Assembly: GCF_004331345.1 (NCBI RefSeq)
Contig: NZ_SJJZ01000004.1
Coordinates: forward strand, 496,001 to 560,000
Origin: Kribbella soli
GTDB lineage: Bacteria; Actinomycetota; Actinomycetes; Propionibacteriales; Kribbellaceae
Reading direction: 5' to 3'
Length of the DNA stretch: 64,000 nt
In this document: piece by piece, positions 34,843 through 48,376 of the stretch
Numbering within the stretch: the first letter of the stretch is position 1
Layout: each line of letters begins with the position of its first letter
The notes under the pieces: generated by a model
The model's input: only the letters and a program-made list of their open reading frames with translations
Databases searched by the model: none
Told to the model about the DNA's origin: nothing
Made by a program: the position numbers and the translations under genes

Positions 34843-34908
34843 CCCACTGCCGGGTTGTTTCACCCCTCGCTGCTCGGCTCGGCCGACGCCCACCCCGTCA
34901 ACTCGGGT

Positions 34909-34978
34909 GGATATCCCCTGGTGTTGTGGGTTCTCCTCTCTAATACCAGGGGAGAACCCACAACCGCAGGGGATATCC
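34909..34978. repeat. Long hairpin repeat, copy 1
   Basis: Arms 34909-34936 and 34951-34978 (28 bp, two mismatches) around a 14-nt loop; the stem runs GGATATCCCCTG to GTGGGTTCTCC. A related copy lies at 36182-36251, and the two bracket the MBL gene. It sits between two convergent genes, so it could act as a bidirectional terminator. The shared flanks (AACTCG-G/A-GTGGATATCC, ATCCCGTCG) look more like a small mobile or REP-type repeat. Confidence 0.7.
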
Positions 34979-35131
34979 CGTCGCGTGCCGACGGGTGCGG
35001 GGTGTGCTGTGGGCGCGGTGCGGTAGCCGCGGAGAGTGGGCGAGAGGCGTACCGAAGAACGGGTAGTGGTGCAGCTTCCGGGACACCCGCCAGTCGGCAG
35101 GACGGCGGGCGGGGGCGTCCGCGGTGGAGCA

Positions 35132-36001
35132 CTACCCGTTGTTCGGTACGCCGAGAGGGTGCCAGGTGTAGGTGGGGCCGTTGCGTTGGACGTGGCCGAG
35201 GCCTGGGAACGGGAGGTGGTAGGCGTGGATCAGGAGGTGTTCGTCGGCGGCGCGGGACAGGAGTTGGCGGCGGGTGGTGATGGAGGCCGGCGCGTCCAGG
35301 TCCCACGGGGTGGCCCAGGCCGGGTTGATGAGTTGGAGCGGGTCGTAGAACGTGTCGCCCACGCAGAGCAGGCGTTCGCCTTGGGACTGCAGGAGGATGG
35401 CGGAGTGGCCGGGGGTGTGACCGGGGGCGGACAGTGTGTGTACGCCGGGCAGGATCTCGGCGTCGTACTCGAACGGCTGCAGCTTCTCGCCGAAGAGTCG
35501 GATGGTTTCTCGAGCAGCCTCGAGGTGCGGCTGCGCCGACGGAAGGTCGACGGAGCCGGACCAGAACGCGACCTCCGACGCATGTGCGAACGCGGTCGCC
35601 GCGGGGAACGTGAGCTCGCCCGACCAGATCGCGCCGCGCGCATGATCCTGATGAAGATGCGTGAACACGACCGCAGCCAAGTTCGACCGTGACAGTCCGG
35701 CGCTGGTCATGCCGCCGTCCAACTGTCCGACGAGCGGCTCGATGTACTCGCCGTACCCGAGGAAGCTCGCCCCCAGCCCCGTGTCGATCACCGCCGTCCC
35801 GTCCGGCGTACTCACGAACAGACAGTTGTACCCACAGGTCAGCGTCGACCGCCCCTCGCACCCATCCCGCAGTACGTCGTCAGGCACACCCGACTCAGGC
35901 GTGAAGAACTCCCCCAGCTGCGGCTCGAACGGCGGCCCCGGCTGGCCGTCGCTCACCACCACACACTCCAACCGCCCAACCGAGAACCGATAGATCATCA
36001 C
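35132..36001 (-). CDS. MBL-fold metallo-hydrolase
   Basis: 289 aa. Zinc motif THLHQDH at 114-120 (H-x-H-x-D-H), later APGHTPGHS, LCVGDTFYDP (bridging Asp) and a C-terminal HAYHLPFPGLGHV. This gives the full set for a binuclear site. The layout resembles AHL-lactonase/glyoxalase-II-like cytoplasmic hydrolases. An acyl-lactone or thioester substrate is plausible but unproven. ATG at 36001 (a second ATG follows directly). It is flanked on both sides by hairpin repeats, and its upstream strand is strongly C-rich. Confidence 0.9.
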   Translation of the reverse strand: MMIYRFSVGRLECVVVSDGQPGPPFEPQLGEFFTPESGVPDDVLRDGCEGRSTLTCGYNCLFVSTPDGTAVIDTGLGASFLGYGEYIEPLVGQLDGGMTSAGLSRSNLAAVVFTHLHQDHARGAIWSGELTFPAATAFAHASEVAFWSGSVDLPSAQPHLEAARETIRLFGEKLQPFEYDAEILPGVHTLSAPGHTPGHSAILLQSQGERLLCVGDTFYDPLQLINPAWATPWDLDAPASITTRRQLLSRAADEHLLIHAYHLPFPGLGHVQRNGPTYTWHPLGVPNNG

Positions 36002-36130
36002 CCCACCCTCCCACCACCCTCACCTGTACGCCGCCCTCCCACACCCCCGCCCTCCCACACACCAACTCGCCTCCCCCCAGTCACCCATCGCCCGCGCCTC
36101 CCGTCACCCCACGCCTCCCACGTTCCTTCG
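36002..36130. other. C-tract-rich leader of the MBL gene
   Basis: Repeated CCCTCCCAC-type runs on the plus strand (G-tracts on the transcribed minus-strand leader). This could fold into G-quadruplex/i-motif structures. No gene is seen. Confidence 0.4.
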
Positions 36131-36181
36131 CGACCTACCCCTCGCGTTCACCTCGGCTGCAGGCCCCCGTCCAACTCGAGT

Positions 36182-36251
36182 GGATATCCCTTGGTGTTAA
36201 GGGTTCTCCCCTCGCATGCCAGGGGAGAACCCACCACGGCAGGGGATATCC
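36182..36251. repeat. Long hairpin repeat, copy 2
   Basis: Arms 36182-36211 and 36222-36251, 30 bp with several mismatches, 10-nt loop. About 80% identical to copy 1 over 75 bp including flanks. Arm mismatches differ from copy 1, so the two copies have diverged independently. Confidence 0.65.
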
Positions 36252-36422
36252 CGTCGTGTGCTCGGCGGCGCGGTCGGTGGCAGAGCGGTGGGTGCGGGGC
36301 GGTGGGTGCGGGGCGGTGGGGTGGGGGTAGGCGGGGACGTTTTCCGGGGGTTCATGGGATGGGGTGGTGGTGTTCATTTCGTCGGGTGAGGGTCGCGGGG
36401 ACCGGTTTGAGGGGAGTTGGGA

Positions 36423-48281: not shown

Positions 48282-48376
48282 CCGAATTTGCTGGGTCAGC
48301 CAGTCAAGTGCGGGGTTCCACACCCTGGTTCAGGGTGTGGAACCCGGCATTTGACTGGCCCACCCAGCAAATTCGG
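48282..48376. repeat. 95-bp near-perfect hairpin
   Basis: Arms 48282-48327 and 48331-48376, 46 bp with four mismatches, 3-nt loop (GTT). The stem starts CCGAATTTGCTGGGT and ends GGGTTCCACACCCTG. Another ATTTGCTGGGT lies at 48265-48275. It sits between two convergent genes. It may be a bidirectional terminator, but the length and extra end-repeat look like a MITE or REP-type element. Confidence 0.8.

Follow-up and report, generated by a model that had tools for sequence, protein, structure and literature searches.

A dispersed palindromic repeat family in Kribbella and a hairpin-bracketed AbiEi_4-type gene as its possible partner

Introduction

Two long hairpins of related sequence flank a gene for a metallo-beta-lactamase (MBL)-fold hydrolase in the genome of Kribbella soli (G000, 8.785 Mb), which raises the question of what these hairpins are and whether they have anything to do with the gene between them. 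A sequence-only reading of this locus had considered them either as the composite, MITE-like ends of an element that moved the hydrolase gene or as REP-like terminators. The window analyzed here is a stretch of 64,000 nucleotides (C5:496001-560000 of G000), in which the following features are relevant.

34900..34987, no strand: hairpin 1, solo copy of an 88-bp palindromic repeat in the gap of a converging gene pair (R1 model, 91.4 bits, plus strand)
35132..36001, minus strand: gene for a metallo-beta-lactamase-fold hydrolase of 289 aa (PF00753, E = 6.7e-18)
36173..36260, no strand: hairpin 2, a further solo copy of the hairpin 1 repeat in the gap of a diverging gene pair
48287..48376, no strand: copy of a second hairpin family (74-78% identity; 27 flank queries match, best E = 1.5e-15)

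Results

Two copies of one hairpin-forming repeat in the window

An ungapped direct repeat of 90 nt with 88% identity (34899-34988 versus 36172-36261) covers both hairpins. When folded with DNA parameters on the plus strand, each copy formed a single long hairpin (-30.8 kcal/mol for hairpin 1 and -28.0 kcal/mol for hairpin 2), with z-scores against 200 shuffles of -8.4 and -6.4, respectively. The word GGATATCCC occurs six times in the window, where 0.24 occurrences would be expected, and all six are located within hairpins 1 and 2. The two long hairpins near the MBL gene are therefore real, and the repeat, the folding z-scores and the excess of GGATATCCC are beyond chance. The hairpin cores given by the sequence-only reading (34909-34978 and 36182-36251) were recovered, but the conserved unit defined by 40 genomic copies is wider (34900-34987 and 36173-36260). 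The same reading took the hairpins to enclose nothing but the MBL gene with its leader; gene and C-rich upstream stretch are indeed there, but a further inverted repeat is present at 35046-35152 (28-bp arms, 51-nt spacer), which lies between hairpins 1 and 2 and is unlike them. The 3' end of the hydrolase gene forms its right arm and recurs in inverted form as its left arm; the structure is found in the relative G017 too and, in an altered form, in G022. The arm motif ACGGGTAGTG is similar to a repeated segment 'A' near other repeat copies. When the window was searched with Rfam at gathering thresholds, the sole match was a tRNA and the hairpins were unmatched.

Sequence, structure and distribution of the 88-bp repeat

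In G000, a covariance model of the repeat gave 94 matches on both strands at E ≤ 0.01, corresponding to 48 distinct places, the weakest of which (C2:2726546) had an E-value of 0.008; one of the 48, C2:1397334, matches the second hairpin family too. For alignment, 40 of the 48 places were used, the eight absent from an earlier BLAST list being omitted, and all 40 copies occupy 88 columns without a gap. The unit is an imperfect palindrome with two inverted arms of about 28 bp, each with two conserved dyad blocks, GGATATCC and GGTTCTCC, so that four near-fixed blocks (GGATATCC, GTTGTGGGTTCTCC, GGAGAACCCACAAC and GGATATCC) stand inside the 88 bp with spacings between dyad starts of 20, 22 and 20 bp. 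Stem positions are paired in 84.4% of cells in the 40 copies versus 80.6% in shuffles, 19 of the 36 stem pairs are changed on both sides (a number reached by 13 of 500 shuffles), and the covariation score of the stem exceeds that of all 500 shuffles. Conservation drops beyond 88 bp in this alignment. A continuation of the palindrome into the flanks was considered and rejected, as pairing outside the 88 bp (20-45%) is about what the skewed base composition lets one expect. In the 40 copies, the left flank is rich in C and the right flank in G, for example at 36017-36172 and 36261-36330 of the window, and both vary strongly in length and sequence among close relatives.

The covariance model was scanned over 38 genomes, all of them Kribbella, and matched 32 at E ≤ 0.001, where numbers of matches per genome refer to both strands and to the 116 candidates scored in each; at this threshold no match was obtained in G010, G011, G012, G020, G028 and G037. 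A search with an exact 28-base arm pattern, which may omit records very close to the window's own genome, hit three named records, each from Kribbella (K. rubisoli, K. pittospori and K. sindirgiensis). Matches in G001, G009 and G030 are mostly 89 bp long instead of 88 bp and those in G034 are mixed, which suggests that the version of the repeat tends to be specific to a species. In the plasmid collection, no copy of the 88-bp repeat was detected.

The hydrolase gene is a bystander

The hydrolase gene with the same neighborhood was found in several relatives. In G025 and G029 the gene and hairpin 1 are kept and 314-317 bp with hairpin 2 are absent, the flanking genes being 92-93% identical. The locus lacks hairpin 1 in G017 and either hairpin in G021, and it is present in G011, a genome without any detectable repeat copy. 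In G022 the locus is split over contigs, with only a half-like remnant close to the position of hairpin 2. Since relatives with a single hairpin or with none have the same neighborhood, the gene is a bystander of the hairpins and not their cargo. The orthologous loci of G025, G029, G017, G021 and G011 thus rule out a composite transposon with this gene as cargo, and the earlier suggestion of composite MITE ends that moved the MBL gene has to be given up. In G021, the gap that contains hairpin 1 in G000 is occupied by a different long palindrome around GACAGTACGTATACGTCCACT (L101, about 1450-1570).

Hairpins 1 and 2 differ at 11 positions and are mutual nearest neighbors among the 40 aligned copies of G000, the next copy having 15-16 differences. 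As hairpin 1 of G025 is equally close to the pair in the window (10 and 11 differences), hairpin 2 seems to have arisen locally as a copy of hairpin 1, at about the time when these species parted. Given the half-like remnant at the split place of G022, hairpin 2 may have been gained in G000/G022 or else lost in G025/G029.

Turnover of the repeat among close relatives

For 13 loci of G000, the corresponding place was compared in three to five of the relatives G025, G029, G017, G022 and G012. The repeat was present in 10 of these 60 comparisons and not found in 50, numbers that include nine comparisons with the element-free G012 and six negatives in which the right flank was unaligned in the fetched stretch. 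At eight of the 13 loci the repeat was found in no relative examined. This variable presence, together with the 48 places in G000, bears out the proposed REP-like or MITE-like dispersed palindrome and does not agree with fixed, conserved terminators that lack other copies.

The extra block of G000 with respect to its relatives ranges from about 86 to about 480 bp, no constant insertion ends were recognized among these blocks, and no fresh insertion in progress was caught among the compared loci. The sequence-only reading had pointed to target-site duplication as a diagnostic; over the 40 copies there is no excess of a shared one, and a 4-5-bp repeat was seen at a single locus only (L028 versus G017). 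Because neighboring repeated segments recur beside different copies in varying combinations (L012, L013, L021 and L026), the spread of the repeat looks like patchwork copying and not like a clean cut-and-paste process. Hairpin-like repeated segments, named A, B, D, E and F, adjoin copies at L006, L008, L013, L021, L026, L031, L039, L041, L043 and L045, and segment F is similar to hairpins next to AbiEi_4 genes in G001 and G030. Strict hairpins were not convincingly enriched in the surroundings of solo copies (1-3 seen versus 0.3-1.3 expected). All 47 matches to the repeat arm with up to three mismatches are located inside complete elements, and at this stringency no lone arms bounding a transposase or any other gene were found.

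Gene context of solo copies

The 39 classed copies are located between genes, and the gene pairs around them are converging in 20 cases, co-directed in 16 and diverging in 3. In a background of 341 gene pairs from 400 kb of G000, the corresponding numbers are 73, 196 and 72; gene calls came from a crude ORF caller, and some called ORFs overlap repeat copies. Copies are thus more frequent than background at converging pairs (Fisher p = 1.3e-4) and fewer at diverging ones (p = 0.054). Four copies (L005, L017, L020 and L028) are situated at most 14 bp from both stop codons, and at L005 and L020 the same slot in relatives is occupied by a different, terminator-like hairpin. A terminator-like side effect of the hairpins is therefore possible.

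A candidate partner gene between two copies of the repeat

A second close pair of repeats in G000 (C4:778290 and C4:779504) brackets a gene of 320 aa (C4:778425-779384), and the same 88-bp repeat also stands on either side of a homologous gene that G034 carries at an unrelated place. The G000 protein contains an AbiEi_4 winged helix (PF13338; 32.5 bits versus a cut-off of 25) and is similar to AbiEi of PADLOC over residues 8-185 (E = 1.5e-16). At E ≤ 0.1, AbiEi_4 was matched in all of 30 homologues, and their C-terminal parts gave weak matches to DUF559 in nine cases (best E = 5.9e-4) and to MTES_1575 in five (best E = 2.3e-3). The G000 protein itself matched no nuclease-domain profile at E ≤ 1, and a sequence search of solved structures (PDB) revealed no relative. 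The residues D248, E259, D261, K265, E277 and K278, for which a catalytic role is predicted, are invariant in the 30 homologues, as are the motifs RVD, EFDGxxKY and EKxREDRxR. On this basis, the C-terminal domain is weakly predicted to be a PD-(D/E)XK (DUF559-like) nuclease.

A homologue at E ≤ 1e-60 is encoded in 36 of the 38 Kribbella genomes, and none was found in phages or viral contigs. At the nadA site, the genes of G000 and G022 cluster in the protein tree with genes of G034 and G019 from another site (support 1.0), and the nadA-site genes of G025, G029 and G033 fall apart from them. Because the tree does not follow genomic place, the gene, or its sequence, has moved or been replaced. 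The orientation of the bracketed gene at the nadA site of G000 is opposite to that in G022, G025 and G029 (loci L038, L156, L153 and L154). The nadA site of G017 was rejected as an empty site since it holds an inverted gene remnant of 86 bp (L155, 568-653), which indicates loss.

Bracketing by matched hairpins

At the loci of the best homologues, one per genome, the repeat was found at E ≤ 0.1 on both sides of the gene in 21 of the 30 cases, on one side in 5 and on none in 4; a recount at E ≤ 0.001 gave 16, 8 and 6, respectively. Much of this bracketing count is due to shared descent, because the 30 loci form only five neighborhoods and 18 of them belong to one. Two of the four loci without the repeat (L238 and L246) have strong palindromes of other sequence on both sides. 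Similarly, nine homologue loci from G001, G008, G010, G011, G028 and G030 (L285, L286 and L305-L311) showed no R1 hairpin at E ≤ 0.05, and several of them have palindromes of their own sequence.

When palindromes were scored without any model, both-side palindromes with a score of at least 14 were present at 24 of 49 homologue loci versus 1 of 283 ordinary genes, and with a score of at least 10 at 37 of 49 versus 11 of 283. In a further set of 20 loci, these thresholds were reached at 9 and 13 loci, respectively. Similarity between left and right flanks was above the 99th percentile of controls at 61 of 68 loci, and the own partner flank was the best or tied best of the 68 at only 12 loci and among the top three at 30, since flanks of related loci match too. 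In these comparisons the two sides are genomic left and right, without turning loci to gene orientation, paralogue loci were chosen by the analyst from the homologue list and not at random, L244 (contig start) was left out of palindrome scoring and flank comparison, and L286 was left out of the latter.

Hairpin sequences differ between paralogues. The G000 paralogue at C2:2709205 is bracketed by the second hairpin family (C2:2709062 and C2:2710166), which occurs at no fewer than 31 places in G000, these two brackets included, with the window copy at 48287-48376 as a further one. A third hairpin with the motif GGTTGTTTCACCG flanks the AbiEi_4 gene of L253 left and right and recurs at five further places in the sequence examined. 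Ten places in G000 match AbiEi_4 above the Pfam cut-off, and clear matched hairpins on both sides were found at four of them (L253, L257, L258 and L260). At L253 (1382-2400), hairpin B stands both before and after the AbiEi_4 gene, whose reading frame diverges from the family just past the EK of EKxREDR, at the start of the downstream hairpin B; the gene looks cut short.

Proteins and hairpins diverge together

Protein identity and similarity of flank hairpins are correlated (Spearman 0.65, not reached in any of 2000 Mantel permutations) over 387 of 435 pairs, the pairs from the same neighborhood having been removed, where loci outside this grouping may still include orthologous sites. At the level of genomes, the repeat is present in 27 of 28 genomes in which a homologue scores 300 bits or more and in 5 of the 10 others (Fisher p = 0.0026), and the number of repeats correlates with the homologue score (Spearman 0.58, or 0.55 without G000). 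This genome-level correlation is weaker than it appears, because both measures fall with distance from G000. Exceptions are G001 and G030, which have many repeats and no homologue above 246 bits, and G020, which has a homologue of 344 bits and no repeat at E ≤ 0.001.

Homologues of the partner protein were detected in four records of the plasmid collection, three from Tsukamurella tyrosinosolvens and one from Collinsella. Of the three Tsukamurella loci, two are flanked on both sides by matching repeats (78 and 100 bp) and one has none; the flank score reached 60, whereas the 283 Kribbella control genes did not exceed 33, and one of the repeats occurs at three places in its record. The two loci with matching long repeats, L326 and L327, come from another order of Actinomycetes, and the downstream flank of L326 contains, besides the repeat, a run of related GGGGGA-type units. 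Given these two loci, the arrangement of a hairpin and its proposed spreader may extend beyond Kribbella.

Discussion

We propose that hairpins 1 and 2 represent solo copies of a non-autonomous repeat whose spreader would be the repeat-bracketed protein with AbiEi_4 and predicted nuclease domains, acting in a REPIN/RAYT-like manner without being a RAYT, and we assign a probability of roughly one half to this reading. The winged helix would bind the inverted arms of the repeat, the C-terminal domain would nick or cut at hairpins or target sites, and repair would then copy the repeat, sometimes with pieces of its flanks, into new intergenic gaps. Gaps between converging genes would be favored, as a long hairpin would be tolerated there and may end transcription too. 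Each paralogue would work with its own hairpin family, as RAYTs do with REPINs, by means of an unrelated protein. Recognition of two arms by a winged helix is plausible because AbiEi antitoxins bind inverted repeats and autoregulate through them, with Rv2827c binding two sets, as described in PMC7319586.

That property of AbiEi antitoxins also speaks for a regulatory role, in which the AbiEi-like protein would autoregulate via the bracketing repeats and control a regulon via the scattered copies, which recombination spreads and selection keeps. The gap-free 88-bp unit with its four evenly spaced dyads would suit an operator. However, repeats occur downstream of the gene as well, only 3 of the 39 solo copies are at diverging pairs and 20 are at converging ones, away from promoters, and few copies are common to close relatives (10 of 60 comparisons), so that operators seem an unlikely explanation. 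We are equally doubtful about ordinary MITE-like or REP-like repeats that an unrelated transposase would move, with the AbiEi-like gene as a chance passenger between two copies. Their patchy and fast-changing presence among close relatives would fit, and many bacterial MITEs have lost their parent element. However, such repeats would explain neither the bracketing on both sides of 21 of 30 loci, nor the different matched hairpins of different paralogues, nor the co-divergence of protein and hairpin; moreover, no lone arms bound another gene at up to three mismatches, no target-site duplication is shared, and PF01797, the transposase family searched, is absent from G000.

The idea that the hairpins are selected bidirectional transcription terminators, whose likeness is incidental to spread by gene conversion, draws on the excess at converging pairs (20 of 39 copies versus 73 of 341 in the background), on the four copies within 14 bp of both stops and on the different terminator-like hairpins in the L005 and L020 slots of relatives. 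However, 16 copies are co-directed and 3 diverging, with hairpin 2 among the latter, neither such sequence conservation nor the 20/22/20 spacing is needed for termination, and the bracketing of one gene family is left without explanation, which makes this account quite improbable. Finally, import of the hydrolase gene by a composite mobile element with the hairpins as its ends, to which the 1.27 kb between hairpins 1 and 2 might point by its closeness to the 1.21 kb of the pair around the AbiEi-like gene, has practically no probability left, as it is refuted by the unchanged hydrolase neighborhood in relatives with one or no hairpin.

The proposed repeat-plus-spreader system resembles several known ones. 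REPs and REPINs are described as dispersed intergenic inverted doublets at a fixed distance near gene 3' ends with a repeat-flanked partner gene (PMC3116915, PMC3733652), and the RAYT partner co-evolves with its repeat (PMC8266576). Likewise, the Kribbella repeat consists of dispersed intergenic inverted doublets at a fixed distance and near 3' ends, many per genome, and its candidate partner gene is flanked by its own repeat and co-diverges with it. In contrast, the unit of 88-89 bp with a stem of about 36 bp is far larger than the REP stems of 5-13 bp listed in Table 1 of PMC3733652. REP-type repeats are described in that article with a HuH transposase partner, some REP families being without a known one, whereas the candidate of Kribbella combines an AbiEi_4 winged helix with a predicted DUF559-like domain and is not a RAYT. 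The RAYT-type Y1 (HuH) family PF01797 had no match in G000 and was matched in 1 of the 38 genomes of the genus, using a search that found it in 5 of 14 control genomes. A RAYT as mover of the repeat was therefore rejected, and the Kribbella system is not filed as REPIN/RAYT because that family is absent.

Palindromic MITEs, such as Correia/NEMIS or RUP, are short, non-coding, dispersed, hairpin-forming and polymorphic among relatives. The Kribbella repeat shares these features, but it has no shared target-site duplication or constant ends, and it brackets a matched gene family. With AbiE type IV toxin-antitoxin systems the partner has the AbiEi_4 winged helix (PF13338) in common, although fused to a different C-terminal domain, and among the named neighbors of the genes examined no AbiEii-type toxin was noticed. 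Homing endonucleases and HEARO/IscB are free-standing nucleases tied to a non-coding element. A predicted nuclease gene is tied to a structured non-coding element in Kribbella as well, but the predicted nuclease is of another class, DNA palindromes stand on both sides, and there is no evidence for a guide RNA. In the open-licence literature we found no paper on such repeats in Kribbella and none joining DUF559 and AbiEi.

More generally, the large actinobacterial family of AbiEi-winged-helix/PD-(D/E)XK proteins might consist of dedicated spreaders of their own hairpins, each paralogue recognizing the pair around its gene and seeding intergenic solo copies by cutting and templated repair, a proposal that we make tentatively and with slightly more doubt than confidence. 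If true, the REPIN/RAYT life style would have been invented a second time with an unrelated enzyme, and an explanation would be at hand for many 'AbiEi antitoxin domain' genes found without a toxin. A repeat family with a different, hairpin-bracketed partner in Actinobacteria would show that the arrangement of repeat plus partner arose more than once, and it would offer a testable function for AbiEi_4/DUF559-type proteins that are annotated as antitoxin-domain or hypothetical. Dozens of matched protein-hairpin pairs are available for studies of recognition, and the bracketing of a gene for a DNA-binding, nuclease-like protein by the dispersed palindrome hints at an undescribed bacterial way of keeping and spreading small repeats.
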